Shown in pieces: positions 4,573 through 29,136 of a DNA stretch of 43,131 nucleotides (its first letter is position 1; each line of letters begins with the position of its first letter). This DNA comes from an uncultured delta proteobacterium (GTDB taxonomy: Bacteria > Desulfobacterota > Desulfovibrionia > Desulfovibrionales > Desulfovibrionaceae): positions 1 through 43,131 of the forward strand of contig CAILNX010000049.1 of assembly GCA_903835685.1 (NCBI GenBank), written 5' to 3'. The translations under genes and the position numbers were made by a program. The notes under the pieces are model-generated. The model made no database searches. It worked only from the letters and a program-made list of their open reading frames with translations, and was not told the DNA's origin.

Positions 4573-4604
4573 GCCGTTTCCCTTTTCAAAAGCCGCAGTG
4601 GCCG

Positions 4605-9968: not shown

Positions 9969-11107
9969 ACCAGCCGGGTCCTTCCGGTCAGGAGTTCCTG
10001 CATCATACCCTGTTTAAGGTCGCGAGTTTTGTCGCGACGGGCTTCAAGGGCGGCGAGTTCGGTATCCATGTCGGAGAGGATGGCGGCGATGGCGGTTTGT
10101 TCGTCAACAGTGGTAGGAAAGATCAGTTTGAAAGCGAGAATCGCTGTCTTTTGAACGTTTGGTAGGCCTGATCCTACGCGTAGTGCCATGATTGATGTCT
10201 GTTGGGCTTTGAGTGCGTGGTACAGAAAATCGTTCGCGATTCCACGCGGAATGATAGCGTAGCAATGTCCACCGCACCAAAATGCTTCAGCCATGAACTG
10301 AACATAGCCGCATGAGTTTCCTCCCTCGCTGATTGCAATCGTCCCCCCCGGCGTATTAGCTCTATCGGTGTATCCTGAAGGCGAAACACCTCCATTCAAG
10401 TGGGCAAATCGGCCGTTTTCACTCGTTTTGGAAATTTGTAACTGAATTCCTTTGGTTGCAGAAGCTATTTCCCCAAGTGGTCTCTCTTCCCACTCCCCCT
10501 CAAACCCCGGCAACCGCGTCTTCCCGGTCAGCAACTGCTGCATCGCGGCCTGCTTGATGTCGCGTTTCTTGGCGATGAGCTTGTCCAGCGAGGCGATAAG
10601 GGCGTCCACGTCGGAGAGGGCGGTGGCGATGGCGCGTTGCTCTGATGGGGATGGCAACGCACACGGTATCTGCCGCAAAGCGGCTTTGGTTAACTTATAG
10701 CGACCCGCCCCTTGACGGGTAAGATAGGGTGTGATGTCGCGGTTCGAAAAAATCCAGTAAAACCACTCCGTGAGGTTACTGGTTCCCTTCACTAACTGGG
10801 CGTGGTTATTGACATTAAACTTCCCTCGCACCAGCAAAGTCATTGATTGGGTCTGCCACTTGAGGAAATGATCACCGTCTTCACCAATCAAGGCGTACTC
10901 ACCTTCGACGCGATATTCATTTATCCAGCCCTGCACACCTGTTGGCCCGTAGTAGGGATAAGGACCAACCATGCGTTCGCGGACTGCCTGGCTAATCGGC
11001 AAACGAAGTTGATTGCATATGAGGAAGGCATCGCCAACGCAGTCAACACGCCAACTACTCGGGATCACTCCCACCTCAGTCCTTTTGTACCCCGGCTTCA
11101 GTTCCAT
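9965..11107 (-). CDS. hsdS: Type I restriction specificity subunit S
   Basis: A 380-residue DNA recognition subunit. It has two target-recognition domains (about 15-155 and 210-350), each followed by a helical conserved region (SEQRAIATALSDVDALIASL near 158-177 and DEQTAIAAILSDMDTELAAL near 338-357) ending in LLTGKTRL and LLTGRTRL. The near-duplication of these two ends is the usual HsdS pseudo-symmetry. The recognition domains are lower in GC than the rest of the operon, which fits exchange of specificity by recombination. It overlaps hsdM by 10 bp and the next gene by 4 bp. The recognition sequence cannot be predicted here. Confidence 0.95.
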   Translation of the reverse strand: MELKPGYKRTEVGVIPSSWRVDCVGDAFLICNQLRLPISQAVRERMVGPYPYYGPTGVQGWINEYRVEGEYALIGEDGDHFLKWQTQSMTLLVRGKFNVNNHAQLVKGTSNLTEWFYWIFSNRDITPYLTRQGAGRYKLTKAALRQIPCALPSPSEQRAIATALSDVDALIASLDKLIAKKRDIKQAAMQQLLTGKTRLPGFEGEWEERPLGEIASATKGIQLQISKTSENGRFAHLNGGVSPSGYTDRANTPGGTIAISEGGNSCGYVQFMAEAFWCGGHCYAIIPRGIANDFLYHALKAQQTSIMALRVGSGLPNVQKTAILAFKLIFPTTVDEQTAIAAILSDMDTELAALEARRDKTRDLKQGMMQELLTGRTRLV

Positions 11108-13488: not shown

Positions 13489-13753
13489 GTGGGTGAGTAT
13501 CCTGATGGGGCGCTCGGTCGCGTGTTTCTGTTCGGGCTGATGTAAATCCCTCGGGGAGACGTGACAGCCGGTCGGTTCTGCTGGCCGGTTAGTCTTGCCT
13601 TCCATAACGGACTGGCTTGGTCGGCACAAGGTCCTCAACTTCAGTTGTGAGGGTCACGATAGCCCAACTCGGCGGGTTTAGTCAGCCTGGAGGTGCTCAG
13701 GGGGTGGAGCTAGAGCTCTTCGCATGAACGTCGCTTACGGCAGTATCAGATAG
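13489..13753. other. Intergenic region before hsdM
   Basis: No gene is seen in these 265 bases. They separate the end of the STAND gene from hsdM, both on the minus strand. Short inverted repeats are present (for example CCTCAACT...GTTGTGAGG near 13630-13650), but none has a clear T-tract, so I cannot say whether the two operons are separately terminated. An hsdM promoter would be expected here; I see no good box pair. Confidence 0.4.
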
Positions 13754-16700: not shown

Positions 16701-17860
16701 AGTCGTTCGAAAGTCTGAACTGGCTTGCCTGCGATCTTGAAGCTGCTCACCAAATGGTCGAGGTTCTGGCCTGCATGCAGGTCCTTTCCGAGCAGCAGGA
16801 CACCTCCTGGAAAGTCGCCTGCCGGACGAGTCATCTGCACGGCAAGTTCTGACTTGCCATTGCCTGCCGGAGCCAGGACCGCAACCACTCGCATAAGAGC
16901 CGATTGGCGAAGCTCACCCAGCATCGACAAGGCAGCGTGGATGTCAGCAACCAGGTTCGTGCCGATGAGCGCGACTTCAGTACGAGCAGCCCGGAGTTTC
17001 GCAAGCAGCCTTCGGTATTGGCGCGGATCCCCAACGTCGGTCGGCAAAAGCTGCTTTATGGCGTCCAAGTCGCCTACACCCAGGGCGATGTAGAGTTCTT
17101 CGAGCAACGTCGCTACCTTCCGCCCATGCTCCGTGAGAGCACCCACTTCGGCATGAAGATGCGTCGGGACACTTGCGACGGATTCCACGATGTCATCCGC
17201 TCCGGCGTTCAAGGCACTGGCCCGTCGGGACAGAATATCCCACGCTGCTTGACCACCTAGGCACCTGTGTAGGGTTTCCTCCGTCGGCACCACATGGTGC
17301 ACCTCCGGCTGGTATTGATGGTGGAAGGGAGCAGCGGCGAGTCCATGCTGTTCTGCGAGAACCTGCGGGGTGACGACGAGTTCACCGAAGTAGGTTTCCC
17401 GTAAAAGGGAGGCCGGGCCGACCAGTATATCCTCAATGTCAGCCGTCGTCTTCAAGGTGAGGTTGAATTCCGGGTACTTGGACTTCAGTCCGTAGAACCA
17501 GTCCTGGTCCCCTTTTGGGAGGACGTATCGGGTCCACAACACCCAGTCGGTCAGGCCAGGAAGATATTTGCGCGTTTTCTGCAGCCCGTCGACAATCTTG
17601 GTGCGTCTCGTAGACCCTAGCTTCTGGCCGTTCGTGGACTGGTACCACTTGCACTGCCACCCATACCAACGCGGCGGTTCACCTAGCTCGCACGGTTTCA
17701 GCAGCTTCAGGTGGAACTCGACACCGGCTTGGTTGGCCAGTTCCTTGAACTCACCGAACTGACCGTAATGGCGACGAATAAGTGCGCGGCAGAGCTTCTC
17801 GAAATTGCTTTCGGGAGCACCGGGTAGTTGTGTGAATGCGTCCCAATTTGCGGCTGGCAT
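13754..17860 (-). CDS. Nuclease-STAND NTPase, candidate defence effector
   Basis: A 1368-residue cytoplasmic protein. Near the N-terminus GVEF (E48) and WYGWQCKWY (Q69, K71) fit the core of a PD-(D/E)xK nuclease of the Mrr/DUF4297 style. A P-loop NTPase follows, with Walker A APAGNGKS (about 330-337) and Walker B VIIDGLNE (404-411), typical of STAND/NACHT proteins. The remaining 850 residues are largely helical and would be the sensor, ending in a Lys/Arg-rich tail (KRKARTKRAAP). This resembles Avs-type antiphage sensors in layout, but the C-terminal part is not one I recognise. It is third in an operon after a radical SAM gene and a small protein, 21 bp after the latter. NTPase call is strong, nuclease call moderate, defence role inferred. 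Confidence 0.72.
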   Translation of the reverse strand: MPAANWDAFTQLPGAPESNFEKLCRALIRRHYGQFGEFKELANQAGVEFHLKLLKPCELGEPPRWYGWQCKWYQSTNGQKLGSTRRTKIVDGLQKTRKYLPGLTDWVLWTRYVLPKGDQDWFYGLKSKYPEFNLTLKTTADIEDILVGPASLLRETYFGELVVTPQVLAEQHGLAAAPFHHQYQPEVHHVVPTEETLHRCLGGQAAWDILSRRASALNAGADDIVESVASVPTHLHAEVGALTEHGRKVATLLEELYIALGVGDLDAIKQLLPTDVGDPRQYRRLLAKLRAARTEVALIGTNLVADIHAALSMLGELRQSALMRVVAVLAPAGNGKSELAVQMTRPAGDFPGGVLLLGKDLHAGQNLDHLVSSFKIAGKPVQTFERLVEALDAAGQRVGRRLPVIIDGLNEAEDPRNWKDVLCRAKILLGNSPYVMLVVTLRTEFAGDCLPDDIANIEMDGFRDDPQAAIDRYFEHYKISAPDADLPIELLQHPLTLRLYCEVANPGRQHTVGVEKLPRSLTELFEEHFKRVTERVAELSPLSHRIYQDEVQTALLRIAEFLWQKNARSAEVNKVRTRIKDVTEWSSSRLKSLESEGILVRTSYGKGQFGDAFAYDLMAGHMIAKHLLYKYDIEQWLKVPSNIAKLTFREPGAHTFAYDIFHALVGLFPTHTNQRRQLWQAVSGKLRLYALLLTVKADPAHISRETVERFEKEMLQSVKFAQAAYPLLRVTRAAQAHPFDVNFLDRVLRAMPNAERDLSWSEWLRKNEEEVIKDIKALELRWESGTLDRREVDRARWVMWTLTTNSRYLRDVSTKALYTLALRSPGEYFQLAVESLTVSDPYVPERALAAAYGAALSTWSDKSDQKMRVALPVVAAELLRTSFVPSAQTPTRHALMRQYCLGIIDLARRLDPSCVSSEEAKYLVPPFSHLPSPFFDPPNATEEQIKKADGAAITMDFGNYTFGRLIPHRSNYDYNNPDYVAARKAIVARMIDLGYDPDRFQPFDQNMTSYSRLGNEKKKVDRYGKKYGWIAFFEMWGWRADNNLLPDWRNERRASDADIDPAFPGKAKSWIPALPDLFTDSPNKVADWILDGPTPNYSSLLEPSEVDNVEGNWVLINGYVEETATADYRNVFTFLRGVFVNKENIKRLEKTFGAMRYQGNSAIPEEPEHCYTYAGEMLFAVPPGLLAKSKDEERSDEMPCEVSVCQHTGGGVPVEIPVQVYGWESHHSELNAVSGVLFPSLKLCQYLGLGYRPGQWDLHDGIGVASLYRKLGTGDISFNGQLLYLRADLLQRYLDKTGQALVWLMWGERGQHYRGHSSGDEDLHDLYVNYKHIHKRSAVWQNNGKFPAETTTTPAPAKRKARTKRAAP

Positions 17861-17881
17861 TCTTGTCCTTGTGCCTCAGCG

Positions 17882-18283
17882 CTAGTCAGCTTGCTCTTCT
17901 GGATAATCGTGCGCGGAATACACTTCCACGCGAGCACCCTCTTCCACAAAGACCTTGATAAAGGCCGACACGTCGGCCTCATCGGTCTTGATGGTGATGC
18001 GTTCGCCCTCGCGATCGAGGTTGTGATCGAAAGCGAATTGCTCCAGGTCAGCAGGGCTAAGCGTGTTCAGCTCGTTAGCACGAAGCAGTGACATCATCGC
18101 ATCGGAGAATCGCTGGTCCGCCGGAGGCAAATGAGAGCTTGTATAGGTATAGTCCTCGACGGCCTGGTCCCTGAGTTTCAGCAGGAGGCTCTCTACGTTT
18201 TCAGCATCCCGAGCCTGCTTGAACTTGCCGATCAGCACCAAGTTCATCGAGTGCTCGGAACCATACCCGGTCCAAATCTTCAC
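17882..18283 (-). CDS. DUF6375-like small protein, operon partner of radical SAM enzyme
   Basis: A 133-residue soluble acidic protein starting at a GTG that overlaps the radical SAM stop as GTGA, so the two are translationally coupled. The N-terminus MKIWTGYGSEHSMNLVLIG matches what I remember of the DUF6375 family, whose function is unknown to me. The rest has helices and a C-terminal strand-rich end (ITIKTDEADVSAFIKVFVEE). There is no leader-core layout or Cys/Ser-rich tail as in typical peptide precursors, so it is more likely a partner or modified protein than a precursor peptide. Family name is from memory and moderately sure. Confidence 0.6.
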   Translation of the reverse strand: MKIWTGYGSEHSMNLVLIGKFKQARDAENVESLLLKLRDQAVEDYTYTSSHLPPADQRFSDAMMSLLRANELNTLSPADLEQFAFDHNLDREGERITIKTDEADVSAFIKVFVEEGARVEVYSAHDYPEEQAD

Positions 18284-19185
18284 GCTTCACTCCCAATTGT
18301 TGACTTTAGTCGATTTAATGCAGCCAGGACGCCGTCAGCACCGATACGGACCCCCGGCCCTTCATATGAACTTGCCCTGATGACGCCTGACGTGTCGATA
18401 TGCGCATATGCTCGCAGTCCCTTTTCCTGTGGCAAAGGGTCACAGGTCGGAAGGCCTTCCGATCCTGCTTCGCTGACTGCAAGTCGTACTTTGCCTGCGT
18501 AGCTGCAAGCCCACTGTTCAAGTTCATGACGTACAGCGCTGCTCGCAGCACCTACCTCGCCAGCGGCTAGCTGGGGTAGCAATAAAAGCTCAGACGCACC
18601 GACATCGTACGCCACTTTCACAAGTGCGTCGAGTTCGTGGACCGTGCTCTCATTCACCACCACGTTGATGCCCAAGGGAGCCAGTTTGCGGGCGTCCTTC
18701 AGGCGCTCCAGCAAGGCCGAGAACCGCCTGCCTCGCTGAGCCTCATAAGTCGCCTTGACTCCATCCACGCTAACCCGGATGAAATGGACGTTGCCTGCGA
18801 TGCGCTCAAGCAGCGGGGGAACAAGCCGGTGGCCATGGGTCGTGAATGTCACGGCCAGCCGAGTTTCCTCAGCCGCATGCTGGCAGATCTCCGCAAATTG
18901 CGGATGCAGCGTCGGCTCTCCCCCCCCAAACCCGACCGCCATACATCCAGTTTGGTCCAGTTCTTTCAGCCAGGCGGCCACAGATTCCGCACTTAGCATC
19001 GCCGGATGTTTTGGGGCGAAGCAAAATGAGCAATGCAGGTCGCAGAGATTAGTAAGGGCAATAGACACCTGACGAGGCGTGGATGACCATGCAGATGGGT
19101 CGGCACGTACTTCATCGAGCAGGATGTTCAGACCAGTGTGGCGGTTAAAGAGATGTAACCCGTCTTGGCCAATTCTTGTCTTCAT
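18280..19185 (-). CDS. Radical SAM enzyme, SPASM-like C-terminus without Cys
   Basis: A 301-residue enzyme from the ATG at 19185; a TTG six bases upstream is a weaker start. C48-x3-C52-x2-C55 (TNLCDLHCSFC) binds the 4Fe-4S cluster and GGGEP (87-91) binds the SAM amine, as in MoaA/PqqE-type enzymes. After the partial TIM barrel, YAHIDTSGVIRASSYEG has the shape of a SPASM/twitch strand (hIdpdGxVxxC), but the usual Cys is replaced and no Cys-rich cluster follows, so an auxiliary cluster is unlikely. It differs from viperins in its surroundings and GGGEP motif. First gene of the three-gene operon. Substrate unknown; the coupled small protein or a nucleotide are candidates. Confidence 0.85.
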   Translation of the reverse strand: MKTRIGQDGLHLFNRHTGLNILLDEVRADPSAWSSTPRQVSIALTNLCDLHCSFCFAPKHPAMLSAESVAAWLKELDQTGCMAVGFGGGEPTLHPQFAEICQHAAEETRLAVTFTTHGHRLVPPLLERIAGNVHFIRVSVDGVKATYEAQRGRRFSALLERLKDARKLAPLGINVVVNESTVHELDALVKVAYDVGASELLLLPQLAAGEVGAASSAVRHELEQWACSYAGKVRLAVSEAGSEGLPTCDPLPQEKGLRAYAHIDTSGVIRASSYEGPGVRIGADGVLAALNRLKSTIGSEA

Positions 19186-19386
19186 AATCAATGGTTTTAT
19201 TATTGTTATATGGTCTTTTGCTGTGGTCGCAGTACGAGATTAAAATTTTTATAGAAATTATATCGTGAACACTCCTCTCTCACCGCGAGCTGCCCGCATC
19301 AACATATCCCTTGCCAAGCGTGGCTTATTTTCAATTCGGGCTCCAAGGCATCAGCCGTATATGATGGAGCTCCATCCTCCTAATAC
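19186..19386. promoter_or_regulatory. AT-rich leader upstream of the radical SAM operon
   Basis: The first 75 bases upstream of the operon are strongly AT-rich. On the minus strand a TATAAT lies at about 19259-19264 (within GATATAATTTC) with only a poor -35 match. A promoter here is likely from position and composition, but the boxes are not secure. No gene is seen up to 19386. Confidence 0.35.
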
Positions 19387-19611
19387 TCAATTTTGTTTTA
19401 GAGGTCCGTCGGTAGTATTTGCATGGTCCTTTGTATTTTGTTTGTTGGTATATGAGAAAGCAGTCGAAATCAAGAGCGCAGTAACAGCAGGCTTGTCGAA
19501 GATGTAGCCCCGTTCTACCAGGACCTTCAGACCCGGGCGCAATTCGGCCATGGTCTGATACCGGCCCCGCAGGACGTTGAAGCAATCCCTTTCCGAGAAG
19601 GATGCCGCGCC
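19387..19611 (-). pseudogene. Possible remnant of a phage or plasmid gene
   Basis: The minus-strand frame from 19611 reads SFSERDCFNVLRGR, then TMAELRPGLKVLVERGYI, which looks like the winged-helix C-terminus of replication or primase-type proteins of mobile elements. It then continues for about 37 residues of unlike, lower-GC sequence, as if joined to unrelated DNA. It directly abuts the dinD fragment in opposite orientation, so this is probably a recombination junction. Low confidence; it may be noise. Confidence 0.25.
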
Positions 19612-19629
19612 CATCCGACTAATCCAAGC

Positions 19630-19959
19630 CAGAACCAGGAATGGGCCGGGGTCAGTGTGAAATCGCACAAGGGGCTGAAGGGCTTAAGTACCCAGAATCT
19701 CCGCGACCACATGACCGAGGCGAAATTGATTTTCACGGCCCTGGCCGAGTTTTCCACTCGGCAGATCGCCGAGAGCGACGTGGCGACAGGCATGGGGGAG
19801 AACAAGAAGGCGGCCAAGACCGGCGGGGCCATTGCTCGCAGGGCAAGACAGGAGTTGGAGGGCAGGACGGGAACCAAGGTCGTGACAGGGGAGAATATGT
19901 TGCCCCCTGGCAAAAGCGCCAGGAAGTCTCTCACCAACAAAAAAAATGAACGAAGCTGA
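19630..19959 (+). pseudogene. dinD: dinD fragment (C-terminal third only)
   Basis: The plus frame from about 19630 reads NQEWAGVSVKSHKGLKGL, then STQNLRDHMTEAKLIFTALA, then GENKKAAKTGGAIARRARQELE and RTGTKVVTGENMLP. This is the conserved C-terminal part of DNA-damage-inducible protein D. Full DinD is about 280 residues; here only about 110 remain. Upstream of NQEWAG the frame stays open briefly but no longer resembles DinD, so the N-terminal BRO-like domain is lost. A GTG at 19657 could start a 100-residue product but has no ribosome binding site. Homology call is good; function presumably lost. Confidence 0.7.
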
Positions 19960-20507
19960 AAGACGTGCATTTCAAAAAAGATTGAGCGCGCCTCAAATCC
20001 GGGAAAGTTGGAGCAGGAAGGAGCGGGTTTGCAGGTCCCTTTGGTCAGGTGGCAAACGCTCGGTGTGGGTCCAAAATGCACGAAATGGTCGATGTGGAGT
20101 CGCTATTTGCAGTGGTTTTGACTGGCGAAGTATTGGGAATAGCGATTGGTTTGAAATAAATTTTGTTTGGCTGTCTTTTCCAGATCAGACGGGGACGAAT
20201 AGGCTAAAAATTGGAGATGAATATTATTCTTTCAATCACTGCGGGTTGATTCCTCGAAGCTCGCTTCGTTTACTCTTGGTTTGAGGAGTCTGTTCTGGGC
20301 CTTATGCCTTTGATGCTCCGCAGCTTGCTGCGGGGTAGTTCACCCGATATTTCTAATATTTTTTGTTGTGCCTGCAATTAGAGGAGATGGTTAGATTATA
20401 TTTTAATTTTACTCCACAATTTATAGGGTAGTATGACGCAAGCGGCCTGATTATTGAGGCTGTACAATATTATTGTATGGTGTGTTCTCCGCGAATGGGA
20501 ATTATTA

Positions 20508-20532
20508 AGCCTGGAGTATGGATTTCCAGGCT
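20508..20532. repeat. Perfect 8-bp inverted repeat
   Basis: AGCCTGGA (20508-20515) and TCCAGGCT (20525-20532) are separated by 9 bases in AT-rich non-coding DNA. The plus-strand continuation (GAATCTAAAGGATTTTTATTC) has a T5 run about 12 bases later, so a weak terminator is possible. Confidence 0.4.
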
Positions 20533-20879
20533 GAATCTAAAGGATTTTTATTCATGCTGATATTTAAGTACTTTTCCGTATTATGTCTTCTGATTTCAAC
20601 CCGTACTCAGTTTAATAAAAATTAAATGGGTTGATTTTGGTTCTATTTTGTATGTCTACATTTTGTAGCGTTTTCAAATTTTTGATATTTTCAACTATGT
20701 TCCATTTTTGAGGCTTATATGCGATTTATGCACTGAAAAATGAAGAGAAATGACCATCGTGTAGTGGCTATCGGGGGGTGGTGAAAAGTGGAGCATTCGC
20801 TCAGAAACCCTAGCGGATGTAGCGTAAAGGCATAAGACGTGGGCTCGTCGTCCCTGCGTCCTCGTCGCCGTCAAGACCG

Positions 20880-20907
20880 TGCACAACATTGAGCCCGATG
20901 TTGTGCA
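20880..20907. repeat. Perfect 10-bp inverted repeat
   Basis: TGCACAACAT (20880-20889) and ATGTTGTGCA (20898-20907) flank an 8-base loop. No T-tract follows on either strand, which argues against an intrinsic terminator; a regulator site or structured RNA is possible. Confidence 0.5.
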
Positions 20908-20923
20908 TCAAGAGAAAATAAGA

Positions 20924-20988
20924 GTACAGTGTACAATATAAAAATAAAAAGAAGATAAAAAGCATACCTTGCTGAAGGGTACAGTGTA
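20924..20988. promoter_or_regulatory. Two GTACAGTGTA operator-like copies
   Basis: GTACAGTGTA is found at 20924-20933 and 20979-20988, 55 bp apart in the same orientation, in a very A-rich stretch. The inner TACA-G-TGTA is a short palindrome, as in dimeric repressor sites. No gene with a clear start lies next to it, so the target is unknown. Confidence 0.35.
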
Positions 20989-21109
20989 AGAGTAAGAATA
21001 TCATACGTGGTCAGAATCGGAGCTGAGTTCCGCTCAAGCCCGCTGATCTTGCCGGGGGGGGCTGTGGCCGAACTGGAAACGACGCTGTCCGGTCATCCCC
21101 CAGGAGTTG

Positions 21110-21310
21110 CTAGGCGGGTGCTGTGTTCACCCGCCCATCCGTTGGCAGGAATGCCTCCAAAACGCTCCAGGATGGCTCCAGGGCGATTTTCGGGGCCTGG
21201 GGCCGCCGTAATCGGGGCGTGGAATTGTCGGAGGCCTGCGGGCCGTCCCCCAGACCCCCGGACTTACCTGCGCAACCAGGTGTGACGGCGAGCAAGGTGG
21301 CCAGGATCAT
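21110..21310 (-). CDS. Small Pro-rich putative lipoprotein
   Basis: A 66-residue product from the ATG at 21310, preceded by a GGGGGGGAGCGAGAAA ribosome binding site. A short hydrophobic start (MILATLLAVTPGC) ends in a possible lipobox Cys and is followed by a Pro/Arg-rich tail. The leader lacks the usual positive residues, which weakens the export call. It lies 19 bp after the two-TM gene in the same direction, so it is probably the third gene of that operon. A spanin-like lysis lipoprotein was considered but no matching inner-membrane spanin is present. Unknown function. Confidence 0.4.
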   Translation of the reverse strand: MILATLLAVTPGCAGKSGGLGDGPQASDNSTPRLRRPQAPKIALEPSWSVLEAFLPTDGRVNTAPA

Positions 21311-21329
21311 TTTCTCGCTCCCCCCCCTG

Positions 21330-21677
21330 TCAATCCTGAATTTTAGCCTCGACCTCGGTCTGTACGGTCTCCAGCATATCCACCAGGGTTGCGCTGGCCA
21401 GTTCCAGCCGCTTCCCACACCACCAACTCATCCAGCCCATGCAGCCCATTCCAAACCCTGCCAGCAGGCGCGAGGGAGTCGAATCCAGCCCCTCAAGCAT
21501 GGGCGGAAGGCGCACCGCGAGGTCTTCGGGGACCAAGAGGCAAAAGAGGAAGAAACTCCCAGCCAGGAGAATCAGCAGATTGAAGCCCCGGAGTATGAAC
21601 CGCAGTTTGCGAAAATATTGAATGTCAGCCGCCCTCTCAAAGGCGTGCATGTCGAAATCAGAAAGTGCGTTCCCCAT
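21330..21677 (-). CDS. Two-TM membrane protein, unknown
   Basis: A 115-residue protein starting one base after the stop of the upstream gene, so coupled to it. A charged N-terminus (about 1-30) is followed by two hydrophobic segments (about 31-50, GFNLLILLAGSFFLFCLLV, and about 70-86, LLAGFGMGCMGWMSWW), then a short amphipathic acidic helix. I do not recognise the family. With its neighbours it forms a small membrane operon of likely phage or mobile-element origin. Confidence 0.6.
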   Translation of the reverse strand: MGNALSDFDMHAFERAADIQYFRKLRFILRGFNLLILLAGSFFLFCLLVPEDLAVRLPPMLEGLDSTPSRLLAGFGMGCMGWMSWWCGKRLELASATLVDMLETVQTEVEAKIQD

Positions 21678-21678
21678 C

Positions 21679-22089
21679 TTAAAAGCCTCTTATTCCTGTT
21701 CCAATCGAAGAAAAACCAGAACCACTCGACCCAAAAGTGTGGCCTCCAGTATCAATCCCGCCCATACCGCCGATCATTTCTAAGCCTGTGGCTGGGTTGA
21801 GACAGGAGTTCGAACAGATAGAATTTGAAAACGGGTCTGAAAACGGATCCGAATGTTCACTGTCGATTGAAGAAGAAAACAAAGCACTGGTTGAGCTGGA
21901 CCAATCATCTGAATCCGAGAGCCCAAACACGGCGCCCGAACCCAAGCTTGAATTGAAGGAGGTGGGAAAATGCGAAAAATTGGCTCCCTGCCCGCTTGCC
22001 ATTCCATTCCCCGCGCTCGTCGTCCGGCCCAACCAGGCGATAAATCCGAACCACGCTGTACAAAGCAGAATTGCGATGATTTGGTCCAT
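21679..22089 (-). CDS. Membrane-anchored Ser/Gly-rich protein, unknown
   Basis: A 136-residue protein from the ATG at 22089, chosen because GGGAGGGGAG precedes it closely; the frame stays open to 22158, but that stretch carries the operator repeats. One N-terminal membrane helix (about 4-20, IIAILLCTAWFGFIAWLG) is followed by a low-complexity Ser/Gly/Asp-rich region with FSDPFS-type repeats and a Gly-rich end. No known domain is recognised. First gene of a three-gene operon reading toward 21110. Confidence 0.6.
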   Translation of the reverse strand: MDQIIAILLCTAWFGFIAWLGRTTSAGNGMASGQGANFSHFPTSFNSSLGSGAVFGLSDSDDWSSSTSALFSSSIDSEHSDPFSDPFSNSICSNSCLNPATGLEMIGGMGGIDTGGHTFGSSGSGFSSIGTGIRGF

Positions 22090-22101
22090 ACTCCCCTCCC
22101 T

Positions 22102-22158
22102 TTGTCCGTTTTGGACAACCAGGCCGACCCCGGCCTTCATCTTGTCCGTTTCCGACAT
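22102..22158. promoter_or_regulatory. Operator pair TTGTCCGTTT, phage-repressor-like
   Basis: TTGTCC-GTTTT-GGACAA at 22102-22118 is a perfect 6-5-6 palindrome. A second, weaker copy TTGTCCGTTTCCGACAT lies at 22142-22158, exactly 40 bp away, about four helix turns. Both lie between the promoter at 22194-22221 and the gene start at 22089. They look like dimeric repressor sites; the nearby HTH protein (22476-22769) is a candidate binder. Confidence 0.55.
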
Positions 22159-22193
22159 CTTGACGTGTTTAACTGGCCGTCACTCTTAACTTT

Positions 22194-22221
22194 ATTATAC
22201 ACTGGACCACAAAAAAAGCAA
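22194..22221 (-). promoter_or_regulatory. Sigma70-like promoter of the membrane operon
   Basis: On the minus strand TTGCTT (22221-22216) and a perfect TATAAT (22199-22194) are 16 bp apart. Transcription would start near 22187 and read through the two operator copies into the Ser/Gly-rich membrane gene. Confidence 0.55.
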
Positions 22222-22475
22222 GCTCTGGCCAGCCCGCAGGCTAGCTAGGGGAGGCAAAAACCGAGGTTCAAATTTCGATTTCGCGGCGGCTTCTGGGTCG
22301 GGGCAGACCATGCAGGGGCCAGCCAGAAAAAGGGCCGGAAAAGGCTCCTGGTGAGCGCGGGAGAGGGACAGGTAGAGGCGGGTTGGACTCTAAAAAGCGG
22401 AGGTCCCGAAAATCGTGGTCGTGAGGATCTCGGCCTGGGCCTCATCCTTGAGTATCCTGAACTGCAAGAGATAAC
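22222..22475. other. Intergenic region, nothing clear
   Basis: These 254 bases between the HTH gene and the membrane operon promoter hold no convincing gene. Composition is mixed and GC-richer than its surroundings. A terminator for the HTH gene would be expected here, but no stem with a T-tract is evident. Confidence 0.35.
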
Positions 22476-22769
22476 CTAACATTTTGACCCATCTTGTTCG
22501 AATTGGGCAATCCGAGCGAGTAGATCCTTCAGTGCGAGATTTTCCCCGAAAATTTCCGGCAACAGTTCGGCCTTGGGGATACCTGTGAGGTATTCGATCT
22601 TGCAGGCCAAGTCGGGCGAGGCCCTACGTTTGCCGGTAAGCACCTCGTTGAAATATCGCCAGTGCACATCACAGAGAGCAGCGTATTTTTTGACCGCCTC
22701 AATCGTGACCGGCTTTGTGGCCATATTTTTGAACTTGCTGCGGTAGTTTTTCCAAGGGCCTGAACTCAT
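22476..22769 (-). CDS. YdaS/Cro-like HTH regulator
   Basis: A 97-residue DNA-binding protein with an excellent GGAGGTAAGAC ribosome binding site before its ATG. Residues about 22-75 (IEAVKKYAALCDVHWRYFNE, then LTGKRRASPDLACKIEYLTG and PKAELLPEIF) have the pattern of YdaS-type or Cro-type helix-turn-helix proteins, in which a GKRR.SP..A..IE..TG segment follows the recognition helix. It is divergent from the giant HTH protein at 23092 and upstream of the membrane operon, so it may control either. The HTH call is good; which operator it binds is not known. Confidence 0.7.
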   Translation of the reverse strand: MSSGPWKNYRSKFKNMATKPVTIEAVKKYAALCDVHWRYFNEVLTGKRRASPDLACKIEYLTGIPKAELLPEIFGENLALKDLLARIAQFEQDGSKC

Positions 22770-23011
22770 GTCTTACCTCCAAGAGCAAAGTGCAAATTTA
22801 TGAAGCATTTTGCAAGTATTTTGTCAGGCTGTTTTGCCCTCGCCGGGCACTCCCTACCCATCTCCCCTGGAGAGTGCGCACGGGGCGCGACAAGGAGGTG
22901 TCTGGGCATGCGAAACGGCGTGCGTATGGGTGGGTGGCCCTGTGTTTGTGTCTCGGAGACTGGCACGGGTTGTTCATGCTAATATGCTGTAAATATTTAA
23001 ATAGAAAAATA
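22770..23011. other. Divergent intergenic region
   Basis: No gene is seen. The region separates the divergent HTH genes, with AT-rich flanks near both starts and a GC-rich centre. A short repeat of TTTTGC/TTTTG near 22807-22833 lies where a promoter of the 22476-22769 gene would be. Confidence 0.4.
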
Positions 23012-23040
23012 TTGCACTGTGTAGCGCAACACGCTACACA
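23012..23040 (+). promoter_or_regulatory. Promoter with embedded palindromic operator
   Basis: TTGCAC (23012-23017) and TACACA (23035-23040) are 17 bp apart. A perfect 9-bp inverted repeat, TGTGTAGCG (23018-23026) and CGCTACACA (23032-23040), fills the spacer and the -10 box. A protein bound there would exclude RNA polymerase. The downstream gene starts with a HigA-like HTH, so autoregulation is the natural reading. Confidence 0.65.
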
Positions 23041-23091
23041 TATTTTGCCTTGCGGTACGCCATGCCACCCAGGGCTGATTAGGGAGTGCCT

Positions 23092-26000
23092 ATGAAAGAA
23101 CCCGTCAGTGTCCCGCATCCCGGAATACGTGTTAAGGCCGAGGTCATCCCAAAGGGGATGCCCGTCACCAAAGCCGCTGAGTTGCTGGGCGTAGGACGCC
23201 CTGCCTTGTCGAACTTTTTGAACGGCAACGCGGCTCTGTCGGCTGACATGGCCACTCGCCTAGCGAAGGCGTTCAACTACCCACGCAAAGACTTGCTGGA
23301 GATGCAGGCAAGGTACGACGCTGCGCAGGCGAATACAAAGAGCGCACCTGCCGGTATCAAGGCATATGTTCCACCGTTTCTCGGCATCAAGTCCAACCAG
23401 ATCGAGCAGTGGGCCACCAATAACATAGCTGCACGCACACGGCTCTCAGTCTTCTTGCGTACTCTGGTTCATTCAACGAACCAGTGCCTGAGCAAAGTGG
23501 ACTTCCCGGGCAACGATGAGGCCGAGCGTCCTGGCTGGGACGGCTTTGTCGAAGCGACTGAAGGAACGCCTTGGGTCCCAGTCGGACGCTCTGGATGGGA
23601 ATTTGGTACCAACGAGAACATCAATAAAAAAGCCAAAGATGACTTTAATAAGAACGTAAAGGCACTCGCACAGAATGAACGGGCGGAGATTACATTCGTT
23701 TTCGTCTCTCCGCGCCGGTGGTCTAGAAAGGCTGCATGGGTTGAGGAGGCGATGGCGAAAGGGCATTGGAAGAGCGTTCGCGCTTACGACGCAAGCGACC
23801 TTGAGCAGTGGCTTGAGCAGTCACTTCCAGCGCAGGCGTGGTTTGCCAGCGAAACAAATATTCCAGCACAGGATGTACGCTCGCTCGATACGTGCTGGAT
23901 TGATTGGGCCAATGTTTCGGACCCGCCACTGACGGGCGCGTTGTTCGTCTCGGCAATTGAGGCGTTTCAGCGCAAGATGCTTTCGTACCTGTCTAAGCCG
24001 TCGGATGGACCAATCGTGATCGCAGCCGACTCGACAGAAGAGGCGCTCGCTTTTCTCGCCCAATTGCTTGGACAACGCGGTGGCGAAGATCTGGCCGCCT
24101 ACCGCGACCGTGTGCTGGTGTTCGACAAGCCCGGTGTCCTTTCGCGTTTGGCGCAGTGCGCACAGACATTCATTCCGGTAGCGTTCACCCGTGAGGTCGA
24201 ACGGGAGCTTGGACCCTATGCGAAATCGATGCACTCGATTGTCGTGTATCCCCGCAACGCCGTGAACACGGAACCCCATATTGTTCTCGAACCGGTCAAC
24301 TACGAGACGTTCAACAAGGCGCTGGAGGAGATGGGCAAGGACCGCGATGAGATTCGACGACTTACGAATGAATCAGGTCGATCATTGACCGTTCTGCGCA
24401 GGCGCGTTGCGACGGTCCCAGCCGTGCAGACGCCTGAATGGGCGGCAGACCATAAGATAGCGGTCAACCTTGTCCCCTTTCTTTTTGTGGGCGCTTGGAA
24501 CAGCGGGAATGATGCCGACAAGTCTGGGCTTGAGTCATTAGCCGGAAGGCGGCCGTATGTTGATCTTGAAAGGGACTTTCAAAACGTTCTCCAGTTGAAC
24601 GATGCGCCGGTTTGGTCGATTGATGCTCATCGCGGCATTATATCAAAAATTGACCTATTATATGCCATTGCAGGACTTGTTACGGGTAATGACTTGAAGC
24701 AATATTACTCGATAGCACGCAAAGTGCTTGGTGAAGACGATCCATCACTGGACCTCGAACCAGATCAGCGCTGGGCGGCATTAATTTACGGTAAGAAAAG
24801 AGAGTACTCAAGCGTCTTCCGCAAGGGAATTTCTGAAACACTTGTTTTGCTTGCTGTCCACGGCAACAAGCTATTTAAGAATCGACTTGGCATAGATACA
24901 GAAGAAGAGGCTCGACGTATCGTGCATGACTTGCTGCCGACACCGCTGACGACGCGCATCTTGGAAGCGAATGATTCCGACTTGCCAACTTACGCGGAAG
25001 CTGCTCCTGATGAGTTCCTGACGATCCTCGAACAAGACTTGAAGGCCGATGCTCCAGCGGCTCGCGGTCTACTGAAGCCGATGGAATCGGGCGTATTCAG
25101 TCATCCGAGTCGCACCGGCCTGTTGTGGGCATTGGAGGGCCTCTCATGGAATCCTGAAACATTGCCCCGCGCTGCTTTCATTCTGGCTCGACTGGCCCAA
25201 GTCGAGATCAACGACAACTGGGGCAACAAGCCCGTAAGCTCCTTGGGAGCAATCTTCAGATCAAGGATGCCGCAGACAGCGGCGAGTTATGAAGAGCGCG
25301 TGGACCTGATGAGGAAACTGGCCAAGCATTTTCCCAATATCGCATGGAAAATTTGTGTCGAACAGTTCAGTGCTTTTAGGGGGTTCGGTCACTACTCCCA
25401 CAAGCCTCGTTGGCGGTCGGATGGCTTCGGATTCGGCGAGCCGCTTCGGGATGGGAAGCTGATTCACGACTTCCAACGTGAAATGGTCGAAATGGCCCTG
25501 AGTTGGAAAGAGTACACGCTCGACACACTCACCGATCTCGTCGAGCGCCTTTCTGCCCTTGATGACAGCTACCAAGCTCGCGTTTGGACGCTGATCGAGA
25601 TGTGGGCTCGGGACAAGGCCAGCGATGCCGATAAATCGGCGTTGCGCGAAAAAATTCGAGTATCGACTCTTTCGCGGCGTACGGCTTTACGCTCCAAAGC
25701 AAACACAAGGTGGCCAGTCCGGGCCAGCAAAGCAAGGGCGGTTTACGCGGCGCTTGAACCAAGCGATCTCTTGAATAGGCACGCATGGCTATTCCGAGAT
25801 AATTGGGTTGATGAGTCCGCCGATGAAATCGAAGAAATTGAGACAAGCGACTTCGAAAAGCGTGCTGAGCGCATCCAAAAGATGCGTGTCGATGCTATGC
25901 GCGAAATCCTTGATCAGCGCGGGTTCGCCGGACTCCTAGAGATGGCGGAACGAGGAGGGGCGTCATGGCAGATCGGGGCGCTGGCGGCCAATGATCTACT

Positions 26001-27219
26001 CTCAGAGAAGGAGCTTAACGAGTTCGTGAGCTTGGCATTTCAGTCGGTGCTAGCAGATAAGAACGGGGTGTGTCCGCTCAAGAGTCTCATTTCCGGCGCG
26101 TTACGCACTATCTCTGACGGTGACAAACGCGAACGGGCTCTGAAAGCGATTGCCTCTGGCTTGTCCGAAGAGGACATGGCGCGTCTCCTGTTGCATGCAC
26201 CATTCGACAAGAGCACTTGGAGCCTAGTCGATGCGCTCGACGAAACGGCCCAGGGGAAATACTGGATCGAAGTTGCGCCCGACTGGTTTTATCACACCGA
26301 TGAGGAAAACAACGAGGGTATCGCGCGTCTTCTTAAAGCTGGGCGGCCTTTCGCCGCATTTTCGTTCTTTCGTCACCATTCGAAAAAGATGGATACTCTC
26401 ATCCTATTCCGTCTGCTCTCAGAGATGGCAAAGGGTGGCAATGATCGGCCAGGCGAGTATTTGCCCGAACACTACCACATTGAGAAGGCATTTAAACAGT
26501 TAAATGATAGTCCCGAACTAACGCTCGATCAGAAAGCCAGTCTGGAGTTCGAGTTCAACGATGTTTTAGTCGGACCAGGGGGGAATTTTGGATCTGGATA
26601 CGGCATCCCGAACTTAGAGCGTTACTTCGAAATCCACCCCGAATTGTTCGTTAGGATCGTCGCGTGGGCCTACAAGCGTGATGATAACGGTGAAGACCCG
26701 GCAGAATTACAAATCCCATTAGATCAGGTTCAAATGGTGTCCGAAAGAAGCTCCAATATTTTGGAAGCATTTAAGCGCATTCCTGGCCACAATGACCTCG
26801 GAGAGTTAACCTCTGACCATCTTTCAGAATGGATAGAGGCAGTTCGCCGTTCCTGCGCTGGATTGAGCCGCACCAACATAGCAGACTACTGCCTCGGAAA
26901 GTTGCTTGGGCACGCACCAGTAGGCAGCGATGGAGTGTGGCCGTGTGAGCCGGTGCGGCAAGTGATGGAGGATATCCAATCAGTGCCCATGGTGGAGGGC
27001 GCGTATACCAGCGTCTTGAATTCTCTTGGCGTTATCATGCGTGGCGAAGGTGGTGGGCTGGAGCGTGGATTGGCAGACAAATATCGCAAATGGGGCCAAG
27101 CCCTCCAGTTCTCGCATCCGTTTGTTTCTTCAAAGCTCCTCATGAAGTTGGCGAAGACGTATGAGTACGAAGCGGGCCGCGAAGACTCGCAGGCGATGAT
27201 TCGTCGCCGTTTGGGTTGA
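23092..27219 (+). CDS. Giant HigA-like HTH / nuclease-like protein, candidate defence gene
   Basis: A 1375-residue protein. The ATG at 23092 is preferred to the GTG at 23086 because AGGGAG lies 5 bases before it. Residues about 20-65 (PVTKAAELLGVGRPALSNFL, then NGNAALSADMATRLAKAFN) form a HigA/XRE helix-turn-helix. Around 145-205 comes GWDG (D150), then GRSGWEFGT (E170), KKAKDD and EITFVFVSPRRW, then DASDLEQWLE. I read this as a restriction-endonuclease-like block seen in large conflict proteins. Near 320 PIVIAADSTEEALAFLA looks like an NTPase P-loop position without GKT. The remaining 1000 residues are helical, HEAT-like, unrecognised. A palindrome sits in its promoter. Single-gene defence system is a plausible inference; no function is proven. 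Confidence 0.6.
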   Translation: MKEPVSVPHPGIRVKAEVIPKGMPVTKAAELLGVGRPALSNFLNGNAALSADMATRLAKAFNYPRKDLLEMQARYDAAQANTKSAPAGIKAYVPPFLGIKSNQIEQWATNNIAARTRLSVFLRTLVHSTNQCLSKVDFPGNDEAERPGWDGFVEATEGTPWVPVGRSGWEFGTNENINKKAKDDFNKNVKALAQNERAEITFVFVSPRRWSRKAAWVEEAMAKGHWKSVRAYDASDLEQWLEQSLPAQAWFASETNIPAQDVRSLDTCWIDWANVSDPPLTGALFVSAIEAFQRKMLSYLSKPSDGPIVIAADSTEEALAFLAQLLGQRGGEDLAAYRDRVLVFDKPGVLSRLAQCAQTFIPVAFTREVERELGPYAKSMHSIVVYPRNAVNTEPHIVLEPVNYETFNKALEEMGKDRDEIRRLTNESGRSLTVLRRRVATVPAVQTPEWAADHKIAVNLVPFLFVGAWNSGNDADKSGLESLAGRRPYVDLERDFQNVLQLNDAPVWSIDAHRGIISKIDLLYAIAGLVTGNDLKQYYSIARKVLGEDDPSLDLEPDQRWAALIYGKKREYSSVFRKGISETLVLLAVHGNKLFKNRLGIDTEEEARRIVHDLLPTPLTTRILEANDSDLPTYAEAAPDEFLTILEQDLKADAPAARGLLKPMESGVFSHPSRTGLLWALEGLSWNPETLPRAAFILARLAQVEINDNWGNKPVSSLGAIFRSRMPQTAASYEERVDLMRKLAKHFPNIAWKICVEQFSAFRGFGHYSHKPRWRSDGFGFGEPLRDGKLIHDFQREMVEMALSWKEYTLDTLTDLVERLSALDDSYQARVWTLIEMWARDKASDADKSALREKIRVSTLSRRTALRSKANTRWPVRASKARAVYAALEPSDLLNRHAWLFRDNWVDESADEIEEIETSDFEKRAERIQKMRVDAMREILDQRGFAGLLEMAERGGASWQIGALAANDLLSEKELNEFVSLAFQSVLADKNGVCPLKSLISGALRTISDGDKRERALKAIASGLSEEDMARLLLHAPFDKSTWSLVDALDETAQGKYWIEVAPDWFYHTDEENNEGIARLLKAGRPFAAFSFFRHHSKKMDTLILFRLLSEMAKGGNDRPGEYLPEHYHIEKAFKQLNDSPELTLDQKASLEFEFNDVLVGPGGNFGSGYGIPNLERYFEIHPELFVRIVAWAYKRDDNGEDPAELQIPLDQVQMVSERSSNILEAFKRIPGHNDLGELTSDHLSEWIEAVRRSCAGLSRTNIADYCLGKLLGHAPVGSDGVWPCEPVRQVMEDIQSVPMVEGAYTSVLNSLGVIMRGEGGGLERGLADKYRKWGQALQFSHPFVSSKLLMKLAKTYEYEAGREDSQAMIRRRLG

Positions 27220-27700
27220 GGCCACCTCGTCTTTGCCATGGAGGATGGTCTGGTCCCGCCGGTCAGGATGGTGTCTGGCACCATCATCTCCATTCTGCCT
27301 GGGGCCTTCGAAAAGTGCAGGGCGGCATCTCTGACTCCTAGCGAGCCGAGTTTCCCAAAAAGAGACCCCAGACGCGTCCACCGTATTTCGTTGCCATCTG
27401 GCTTAAATTGCAGGCAATTTTTATTGCATTCAAATTGCATCTTTATGTTGCCTTATGCTCTCGGCACAGGTATAAGAAGTTCAAGACAACCAAGTGAAAT
27501 TGTTTATATAATTGACTGGAAAATTGACTGAAGAATTGAGTGAAATAATTGACTACAAATTTGGCTGGAAAAGTCTTGAAGATTGACTGCCAGAAACATC
27601 ATGTGGGCAACGCAACAGAATATTATATTGGATGTATATTTGTCCCTCGTTTAGGGCTTTGTGGATGTGCCGGGCACTCCAATAACCAAGCGGAAAAGAT
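27220..27700. other. Non-coding region with repeats before the integration module
   Basis: No convincing gene lies in these 481 bases. They hold a hairpin GATGGTG-TCTGG-CACCATC (27267-27285) without a T-tract, a perfect palindrome AAATTGC-AG-GCAATTT (27405-27420) with a further AAATTGCA at 27432, and a cluster of ATTGACTG repeats (27511-27589). The position upstream of the excisionase-like and integrase genes suggests regulatory or recombination sites. Confidence 0.5.
27511..27589. repeat. ATTGACTG repeat cluster, about 12-bp phased
   Basis: ATTGACTG or a one-base variant begins at 27511, 27523, 27535 (ATTGAGTG), 27548 (ATTGACTA) and 27582. The first four are 12, 12 and 13 bp apart in the same orientation, like iterons or cooperatively bound excisionase sites. 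They lie about 110-190 bp before the excisionase-like gene. Confidence 0.6.
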
Positions 27701-28060
27701 ATGGAAACAGGATTGTCCTCCCTTGGAAAGAAGGTCCCGGCATCCACCGTGGCCGAGCTTTTTGAAGTTGCGGAATCCACGGTTTTGCATCAACCTGGGC
27801 TCTTCGGTGGTTTGAAGCTTTGCCGCCGGGTTCTGTTCTTTGAAAAACTCATAGAGCAAGCAATCTGGAGGCAGTATGCCTTACAAGTTGACCCGGAGAG
27901 GGAACACGGTCTGGCGTGCCCAAGTGAAGGTGAACGGGATCAAGGTCACGGAGCAGTTCCACACGAAGGCGGAAGCCCTGGCCTGGGAGGTCGATCAAAG
28001 AAGGCAGGAAAACGCGCCCGCTACGCAGAACCAGCCGACCCCCACGGTCTCCTTGATTGA
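27701..28060 (+). CDS. Excisionase-like HTH protein, reading into the integrase gene
   Basis: The frame gives 119 residues. Residues 1-60 (KKVPASTVAELFEVAESTV, then GGLKLCRRVLFFEKLIEQAI) have the winged-HTH pattern of small excisionase or MerR-like DNA-binding proteins that precede integrases. From residue 59 on (after YALQ) the frame overlaps the integrase gene by 185 bp and is Gly/Arg/Pro-rich, unlike a natural protein tail. The likely original stop near the integrase start has been lost, or the protein really carries this tail. A GGAAAAG lies before the ATG. The DNA-binding part is moderately sure; direction of recombination control is inferred. Confidence 0.55.
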   Translation: METGLSSLGKKVPASTVAELFEVAESTVLHQPGLFGGLKLCRRVLFFEKLIEQAIWRQYALQVDPEREHGLACPSEGERDQGHGAVPHEGGSPGLGGRSKKAGKRARYAEPADPHGLLD

Positions 28061-28961
28061 ATGGGCAACCCTGTACTTGGACTATTCGCTCAAGTACCGG
28101 CCGAAAACCTATTCCGAGAAAAAGACGGCATTCAAGAGGCTCTTCAAGCACATCCCGCCCAAGACCCTGGTTTCGGACCTGAAAAAGGGGGAAGTGCTCA
28201 AGTTCCTACAAGCGCAGTTTCATACCCGTTCCGGGCACATGGCCAACAAGGACCGGAAGAACTTAAGCGCGGCCTGGAACGACGCCATGCGCTTCTTCGA
28301 CGACTTCCCCGCCCTGCAAAATCCCTTTCAGGCTGTCCCGCCTTTCCCGGCTGACTGCGGATCGCACTACGTGCCGCCCGAGGCCGATTTCTGGAAGGTC
28401 GTGGACGTGTCCCGGGGACAGGATTGGGTGATGCTGTTCACCTTCCTGCACACGGCAGCCAGGCGCAACGAGGTCTATCGTCTGAAATGGGGTGATATCG
28501 ACTTCGGGGGCCAACGCACCCGCCTTGGAACCAGAAAGGCCGGTGGCGGCTCCCTGGTCCATGAGTGGATACCCATGACCGGCGAGTTGTTCACCATCCT
28601 GCTGGAACACCGGCAACGGGCAGTCAACGAATGGGTCTTCACCCAATCCGTGGGCCGCCACAAAGGGAAGCCCTACACGGAAAACCGGGGATTCCCCCAA
28701 GGCCTGTGCCAGCTCGCGGAAGTGAAGTCCTTCGGCTGCCACGGCATCCGGGGGCTCACGGCCTCGATCCTGGCTAAGAGCAACGTGCCCATGAAGGCGA
28801 TTCAGGAGATTCTACGGCACAAGCGGCTGACGACAACGGAACGCTACGTCCGGGGAATGGAGCCGGTTCGGCCTTACCTTCAAGTGCTCGAAGGAGGGTT
28901 GAAGCGGGGCCTACCACCCGGGCCTACCACAAACGAAAAGGGGTTAGGACTTTCATCCTAA
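27876..28961 (+). CDS. int: Tyrosine integrase of the tRNA-Asp island
   Basis: A 361-residue phage-type tyrosine recombinase starting at an ATG with GGAGG 5 bases before it. Order: N-terminal arm-binding domain (about 1-55), core-binding helices (about 58-150), catalytic domain with R196 (HTAARRNEV), H289-x-x-R292 (HGIRG), H315 (LRHKR) and the nucleophile Y324 (ERYVRG). All catalytic residues are present, so it should be active. The gene ends inside the att repeat: its last residues and TAA stop lie in the duplicated tRNA terminator. It would catalyse integration at and excision from tRNA-Asp. Confidence 0.93.
   Translation: MPYKLTRRGNTVWRAQVKVNGIKVTEQFHTKAEALAWEVDQRRQENAPATQNQPTPTVSLIEWATLYLDYSLKYRPKTYSEKKTAFKRLFKHIPPKTLVSDLKKGEVLKFLQAQFHTRSGHMANKDRKNLSAAWNDAMRFFDDFPALQNPFQAVPPFPADCGSHYVPPEADFWKVVDVSRGQDWVMLFTFLHTAARRNEVYRLKWGDIDFGGQRTRLGTRKAGGGSLVHEWIPMTGELFTILLEHRQRAVNEWVFTQSVGRHKGKPYTENRGFPQGLCQLAEVKSFGCHGIRGLTASILAKSNVPMKAIQEILRHKRLTTTERYVRGMEPVRPYLQVLEGGLKRGLPPGPTTNEKGLGLSS
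28907..28929. repeat. Paired GGGCCTACCA repeats at the integrase end
   Basis: GGGCCTACCA lies at 28907-28916 and 28920-28929, inside the 3' end of the integrase gene and touching attR. It mirrors the pair at 1348-1369 at the other island end. Confidence 0.6.
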
Positions 28962-29021
28962 CCCCTTAGATCTTGCTGGCGGAGCCGACGAGACTTGAAC
29001 TCGCGCCCTCCGACGTGACAG
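28929..29021 (-). repeat. attR: island-borne copy of the tRNA-Asp 3' half and terminator
   Basis: Partner of 1172-1263. The identical core 28969-29021 restores tRNA-Asp from the anticodon loop to CCA, so the tRNA stays whole after integration. The outer 40 bases are a terminator copy that has diverged slightly. Confidence 0.9.
28938..28967 (-). terminator. Terminator of the tRNA-Val/tRNA-Asp operon
   Basis: A perfect 12-bp stem AAGGGGTTAGGA with TCCTAACCCCTT and a 6-base loop; on the minus strand it is followed by TTTTCGTTT. It lies just downstream of tRNA-Asp and overlaps the 3' end of the integrase gene on the other strand. Confidence 0.8.
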
Positions 29022-29053
29022 GCCGGCGTTATAACCAGCTTAACTACGGCTCC
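28977..29053 (-). tRNA. tRNA-Asp (anticodon GUC)
   Basis: On the minus strand 77 bases fold as a cloverleaf: acceptor GGAGCCG pairing with CGGCTCC, anticodon loop CTGTCAC with anticodon GTC, T-arm GCGAGTTCAAGTCTCGT, and an encoded CCA end. The 5' half is chromosomal and the 3' half, from the anticodon loop on, is supplied by the integrated island. Confidence 0.95.
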
Positions 29054-29060
29054 GCAAGAT

Positions 29061-29136
29061 TGGTGGGCGGAACAGGGATCGAACCTGCGACCCTCGGCTT
29101 GTAAGGCCGACGCTCTCCCAGCTGAGCTATCCGCCC
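29061..29136 (-). tRNA. tRNA-Val (anticodon UAC)
   Basis: On the minus strand 76 bases: acceptor GGGCGGA with TCCGCCC, anticodon loop CTTACAA with anticodon TAC, T-loop GGTTCGATCC, and an encoded CCA. It is 7 bp upstream of tRNA-Asp and shares its promoter. Confidence 0.95.

Follow-up and report, generated by a model that had tools for sequence, protein, structure and literature searches.

A HigA-type helix-turn-helix fused to a predicted nuclease and inactive-STAND-like protein, with a conserved candidate operator before its gene

A 43,131-nt stretch of DNA from an uncultured delta proteobacterium (contig CAILNX010000049.1), which we call the window, carries the gene for a large protein, P0001, whose chain runs from a helix-turn-helix (HTH) of the HigA antitoxin family through a predicted PD-(D/E)XK nuclease-like domain and an AAA+/STAND-like domain to a long helical solenoid. 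We favor, with some reserve, the reading that P0001 is an NLR-like immune effector and the repressor of its own gene on a single chain; it is probably a self-repressed, inactive-STAND-like nuclease effector with an anti-phage role. The computed evidence comprises the HTH family, a conserved and nearly unique operator-like site, a nuclease-type fold with invariant D, E, K and D residues, loss of Walker A, the solenoid, different kinds of HTH at separate places in the family tree, domain swapping and a mobile, often defence-rich context, and from it we infer DNA binding, repression, cleavage, sensing, triggering and protection. In the mechanism we propose, the HigA-type HTH would hold P0001 at a low level by binding a promoter-overlapping 19-bp operator, recognition of an invader component by the solenoid and the STAND-like domain, which lacks a P-loop, would activate the nuclease, and as the protein became engaged elsewhere or was lost, the promoter would be freed and its own level would rise. 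This bears on the open question of how costly, self-harming bacterial immune proteins are kept silent yet ready, to which all the answers we know of use a separate regulator gene. Because a single chain combines regulator, sensor-like body and nuclease and has a defined, conserved operator, a 23-bp site and one protein would suffice to test whether activation is coupled to expression, and the family phrog_18693, labelled ‘unknown function’, gains a testable mechanism.

Table 1. Coordinates, in window positions, of the gene for P0001, its domains, its upstream region and the neighboring integration site
Feature	Position	Strand	Basis
Putative promoter TTGCAC-17-TACACA under the operator candidate	23012..23040	+	Hexamer positions conserved in several relatives; not recognised by sigma-70 scan
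Operator candidate, perfect palindrome TGTGTAGCG-CAACA-CGCTACACA	23018..23040	.	Sequence, genome uniqueness, conservation before relatives
Gene for 1375-aa protein P0001	23092..27219	+	Relatives start at same place
HigA-family HTH, residues 7-82	23110..23337	+	TIGR02607, PF01381, GraA/HigA structural match
PD-(D/E)XK nuclease-like domain, residues 97-246, with D150, E170, K180, D184	23380..23829	+	Predicted fold, conservation
AAA+/STAND-like domain without Walker A, residues 259-446	23866..24429	+	Predicted fold, motif search
Helical solenoid, residues ~450-1375	24439..27216	+	Predicted model; common to relatives with other N-terminus
Tyrosine integrase of island	27876..28961	+	PF00589
tRNA-Asp	28977-29053		Adjoins integrase
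tRNA-Val	29061-29136		Adjoins integrase

The N-terminal domain belongs to the HigA antitoxin family by TIGR02607 (51.3 bits against a curated cut-off of 47.7), also matches PF01381, and has GraA/HigA as its best structural match over residues 3–84 (Z 13.1, 82 residues aligned, root-mean-square deviation (rmsd) 1.5), in agreement with an earlier reading of the window (the original prediction) that had called the HTH HigA-like. Structural comparisons throughout used AlphaFold models, one of residues 1–460 built from 13 window and locus sequences (mean pLDDT 84.7) and one of residues 440–1375 built from 17 (mean pLDDT 85.8), and Foldseek matches in the PDB were re-examined to obtain Z, aligned length and rmsd. 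The probable start codon is ATG 23092, where the relatives begin in both of our alignments; GTG 23086 opens the frame in the list of open reading frames. Alignment A1 holds 24 full-length relatives with 23–65% identity to P0001, the named members being Thermodesulfobacteriota, Pseudomonadota, Bacteroidota and Actinomycetota, and A2 holds 13 sequences, five of them outside A1, including the N-terminal part of L083. A1 and the tree exclude fragments (L006, L038, L058, L076–L079, L081), L044 (two coding sequences), L069 and L080 (same genome place as L040) and the near copies of L086 (L087, L088, L094); L037 and L040, which have interrupted frames, and L083, cut by a contig end, were used for upstream DNA and HTH only, save for L083 in A2.

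The palindrome upstream of the gene is a strong operator candidate. Its 3′ end lies 51 bp ahead of the ATG, its 19-bp core, TGTAGCG-N5-CGCTACA, spans 23020–23038, and no second site within three mismatches of it exists in the 3.94-Mb genome. Across 18 loci with a HigA-type HTH, window included, this core was found upstream with at most two mismatches in nine (window, L033, L037, L039, L040, the Shewanella baltica locus L041 with WP_012197948.1, L066, L082 and L083), versus 0 of 1194 control windows from the same loci. In five loci (L034, L035, L042, L067, L068) the recognition helix has SRP in place of GRP and the upstream site is TGTAAYG-N5-CRTTACA with 0–2 mismatches; the control count above refers to the TGTAGCG version. 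L032 and L059 retain a TGTGTAGCG half-site and differ from either version by three mismatches. The palindrome sought before homologues is thus present, in one version or the other, at 14 of the 18 loci and as a half-site at two; L036 and L043 have neither. Locus by locus, the upstream match beats every control window in 12 of 16 cases (exceptions L034, L036, L042 and L043). When 11 loci are anchored on the left half-site, conservation amounts to 1.26 bits per column over −12 to +22 versus 0.25 in the flanks and drops to background beyond the site; for the nine anchor columns conservation follows from the anchoring itself, and columns −6 to −1 and +9 to +20, beyond the anchor, are likewise conserved. 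Of nine genome records, seven contain an exact match to the pattern TGTAGCG-N5-CGMTACA, framed after the sites had been seen, and six of them have it at the gene itself; G297 and G304 contain none. As a conserved sequence, the site lies far beyond chance. Self-repression by P0001 through its HTH at its own operator, as originally proposed, is therefore well supported by computation, because the HTH is of the HigA family and the operator-like site is conserved in other phyla, varies with the recognition helix and is unique in its genome; binding and repression are what we infer from this. The trigger that, in the same prediction, would release the DNA-bound protein is hypothetical. Two operator copies lie upstream of position 4230 in L083, their outer halves making a longer inverted repeat, and L034 has a double site as well. 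The Bradyrhizobium loci L037 and L040 (72% and 71% in the best segment) keep the upstream site despite their interrupted frames.

Bare symmetry is a weak test of the same idea. In the window it is moderately unusual, the palindrome's score being reached by one of 150 control stretches, and 9 of the 18 HigA-type loci rank at or below 9 of 150 (missed by L033, L036, L039, L042, L043, L059, L066, L068 and L082). Three of ten XRE-type loci (L045, L046, L072) rank at or below 8 of 150, and neither the HTH-less loci (0/10) nor those with other N-termini (0/7; lowest 13 and 15 of 150) contribute any. At L045, L046 and L072 a different palindrome, GTCATAT-N5-ATATGAC, spans the start codon, which other XRE rows share partly or not at all. 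The hexamers TTGCAC (23012–23017) and TACACA (23035–23040), 17 bp apart, are present exactly as first described, with the 9-bp palindrome exactly filling the spacer and the second hexamer. Their positions are kept as TTGTAT, TTGTAC or TTGCAC followed by TACANN in the window, L033, L037, L039, L041 and L083, and are occupied by variants in L032, L040, L059 and L082.

The block read originally as GWDG, WEFGT and K takes a predicted PD-(D/E)XK fold nearest to FokI-type nucleases, with middling scores to N.BspD6I (Z 9.1, 142 aligned, rmsd 4.0) and FokI (Z 8.4, 135 aligned, rmsd 4.0). The homologue alignment that the original prediction had called for places D150, E170, K180 and D184 at the predicted numbers and finds them invariant, with G148, G151, G172 and A181, in all 24 members of A1; the same four are invariant in 13/13 sequences of A2, where G172 and A181 each vary once, and in HTH-less relatives too. 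In the model, D150 stands just ahead of strand 151–155, E170 within strand 165–171, and K180 and D184 in the next helix.

The third domain, from about residue 259 to 446, resembles CED-4 (Z 8.9, 166 aligned, rmsd 3.5, range 123–446) and Clp AAA+ modules (Z about 8.4), and a GK[ST] Walker A is absent from this part in all 24 members of A1. By fold it may be an inactive STAND (iSTAND) domain, and it lacks the intact STAND NTPase Walker A that marks Avs. Foldseek lists Avs4 with its phage trigger (8dgf) at a probability of 0.82 and E 0.0027 over 366 columns, with a TM-score of only 0.19. Profile matches to dephospho-CoA kinase and a designed P-loop protein were mixed with designed TIM barrels and were not used. 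The remaining residues, about 920, are predicted to form an all-helical solenoid, close to the roughly 1000 helical residues first estimated. A structure search with the solenoid returned generic HEAT proteins only (Z below 9), and a viral fold library gave mainly HTH and AAA+ matches.

Both immune proteins of the nuclease-STAND-repeat type (Avs) and sensors with an inactive STAND domain have been described before. P0001 shares with Avs proteins such as Avs4 the order of nuclease-like, AAA+/STAND-like and long helical repeat parts, but has an N-terminal HTH and no Walker A, and PADLOC Avs models do not match it at E 0.1. The iSTAND sensors of MoxR-vWA and BREX systems, described as probable invader sensors in three papers (PMC7159879, PMC8195603, PMC12839542), likewise join a STAND-like domain with an eroded NTP-binding motif to effector domains, whereas P0001 unites effector, iSTAND-like part, solenoid and HTH on one chain; the scanned window neighbors include no MoxR-vWA partner. 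The HigA proteins of higBA modules, which PMC11980606 describes as autoregulated through palindromes, have an HTH of the same family and a palindromic operator in the promoter, but in P0001 the HTH is fused to about 1290 more residues and there is no HigB upstream. PD-lambda-2 (HigB, HigA-peptidase), a phage defence system, also fuses a HigA-like HTH to another domain, but that domain is a peptidase, and the system includes a HigB-like toxin (PMC9519451). PD-lambda-4, placed among P-loop NTPases in PMC10952713, differs in that its protein A matches only part of the P0001 solenoid. The unannotated phrog_18693 is the family of P0001 itself, matching residues 101–1371 (E 1.7e-131) and omitting the HTH. 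A literature search outside bioRxiv, with few subscription papers included, returned no account of an HTH-nuclease-inactive-STAND-solenoid chain with its own operator.

In a tree of the solenoid (43 rows), three kinds of HTH occupy separate parts. Specifically, a branch with SH-aLRT 100 sets off the 15 HigA-type rows, whose neighbors are two HTH-less rows; nine XRE-type rows stand elsewhere together with L054, and the MerR/excisionase-like L055 is apart. HTH families were assigned by Pfam for P0001, L046, L055, L032, L045 and L043 and by eye for the remainder; L054, XRE-like at the N-terminus by eye, has no Pfam match and was counted as having none. The HTH expected in homologues is thus present in the HigA-type rows and missing from the HTH-less branches; the distribution of HTHs may in part be due to losses. 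In L005 and in prophage-type relatives from E. coli (L086–L091, L094) the solenoid is retained, with another N-terminal domain replacing the HTH, nuclease and STAND-like parts. We speculate, tentatively, that these proteins form a family of immune switches, each made of one protein, in which the combined sensor and effector would double as its own repressor, inactive and self-limiting on the operator, invader sensing would move molecules from operator to attack and free the promoter for a burst of effector, and HigA, XRE and MerR/excisionase-like HTHs would have been grafted separately onto one nuclease/inactive-STAND/solenoid chassis. On that speculation, selection would repeatedly have favored self-repression as a way to limit the cost of a dangerous NLR-like protein. 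The replacing N-terminal domain of L086–L091, L094 and L005 is about 270 aa long, shows a D...QVK pattern by eye and comes from viral contigs and E. coli, where this form occurs in 8 of 5426 genomes, in one examined case within element remnants at a tRNA-Thr gene; its by-eye resemblance to a DUF4297/Cap4 nuclease found no support in Pfam, PADLOC or PDB searches. L057 and L093 consist of the solenoid only, behind a short Ser/Asn/Gly-rich N-terminus, and a 106-aa gene precedes L057.

Several results weigh against a self-repressing immune effector. The hexamers make a poor sigma-70 promoter: a scan of 22400–23120 gave 0 promoter-like sites with 0.7 expected by chance, so that of the promoter first proposed the hexamers and their conserved positions stand and recognition by the scan does not. 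L036 and L043, with five mismatches to both versions, have no recognisable operator, and in G303 the exact match lies elsewhere, the gene's own site having one mismatch. On the solenoid tree four of the SRP rows form one clade and L034 a separate branch, so the correspondence of helix and operator reflects one or two changes, not five. FokI-type enzymes have their active-site lysine two residues past the acidic residue; here that position (E170 +2) is Gly in 24/24, and K180, at E170 +10, may be a migrated lysine. The effector originally placed on the same chain is supported by predicted fold and invariant residues, and its cleavage activity is putative. Both the nuclease and the STAND-like assignments are predicted folds with middling Z and without support from sequence families; for the nuclease part, Pfam offered no family save one chance match in 1 of 24 relatives, and a PDB sequence-profile search gave ribosomal protein noise only. 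PADLOC's PD-Lambda-4 protein A (PDLC03991) matches weakly at residues 595–745 (E 6.8e-05) and in 15 of 24 relatives at E ≤0.01 (best 1.7e-05), and the annotated surroundings of L047, L051, L055 and L056 contain no defence neighbor.

The genomic context is mobile and often rich in defence genes. G+C steps from about 0.50–0.60 to about 0.66 at the integrase and tRNA-Asp/Val genes; no direct repeat of at least 16 bp that would mark the left end of the island was found in 15000–29060. Type I restriction-modification (R-M) genes lie within 5323–13638, in the left part of the window, and an Avs2-type gene (13754–17860, minus strand; PDLC02164, 347 bits) shares the island with the P-loop-less protein. 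Relatives cover at least 80% of the query in 17 plasmid records and also occur in viral contigs, L059 beside apparent terminase genes (by eye). Their annotated neighbors include AbiE, Shedu/SLATT, R-M, SIR2, Abi and RES genes, and unannotated loci contain nSTAND, Schlafen-AlbA, PIN and Mrr domains, with two PDC candidates among 10 proteins. The plasmid records, the integrase-tRNA island and the prophage-like carriers would equally suit a plasmid- or island-stability or anti-plasmid device, in which a repressed nuclease guards its own mobile element and not the cell against phage. We count against this, and hold it improbable though the best of the alternatives, that defence genes adjoin several copies and that defence genes, too, usually ride mobile elements.

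Somewhat less probable still is that P0001 mainly regulates transcription of other genes, as STAND regulators with an HTH do, the nuclease fold being a dead scaffold. The HTH, the STAND-like part and the non-lysine residue at the FokI lysine position fit such a role, but the D/E/K/D residues are invariant in HTH-less relatives too, and the uniqueness of the operator in its own genome leaves no regulon by operator motif.

The original prediction went further and saw in P0001 a fused toxin-antitoxin pair, which is not supported. A hidden Markov model built from four HigBs recovered the toxin at 13 of 20 control loci with a stand-alone HigA, each searched in full, and at none of the 18 fused loci, searched up to 1.5 kb upstream with downstream DNA outside the scan (only 151 bases for L041, and about 1.1–1.2 kb for L082, L066, L067 and L068); tblastn with a single HigB had been too insensitive, finding 4 of 10 control loci. 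Thus the adjacent HigB gene that defines a type II higBA module is missing upstream of all 18, and the rest of the chain occurs without an HTH or with other HTHs. The same counts make it very unlikely that the HTH still serves as antitoxin for a HigB made elsewhere, with the large body as an accessory that would inactivate the HTH upon infection: the HigA family and an ordinary higBA elsewhere in the genome speak for this, but that higBA has its own HigA. In the 3-kb stretch around it the operator was not found (best 5 mismatches). Least credible of all is an intrinsic terminator in place of an operator, for although a scan lists a terminator-like hairpin of 9 pairs followed by TATTTTGCCT, relatives retain the sequence without the T-run and often without full symmetry, and the annotated-size upstream reading frame (22476–22769) is oriented oppositely.

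Other features of these loci were recorded in passing. The divergent 97-aa reading frame at 22476–22769 (minus strand) is HTH-like by eye with no Pfam match, and the XRE-type L045 and L046 are divergent from an AbiE toxin-antitoxin pair. Within the window, all on the minus strand, a 921-aa protein with matches to PrimPol models (PDLC01465, 316 bits) and helicase models (2128–4893) adjoins the type I R-M genes, a 516-aa protein with DUF4062, RecG-like HATPase_c_4 and Fic-like C-terminal domains (8418–9968) lies between the HsdS and HsdR genes, and a DUF6375 gene and a radical SAM gene (17882–19191) overlap end to start beside Avs2.

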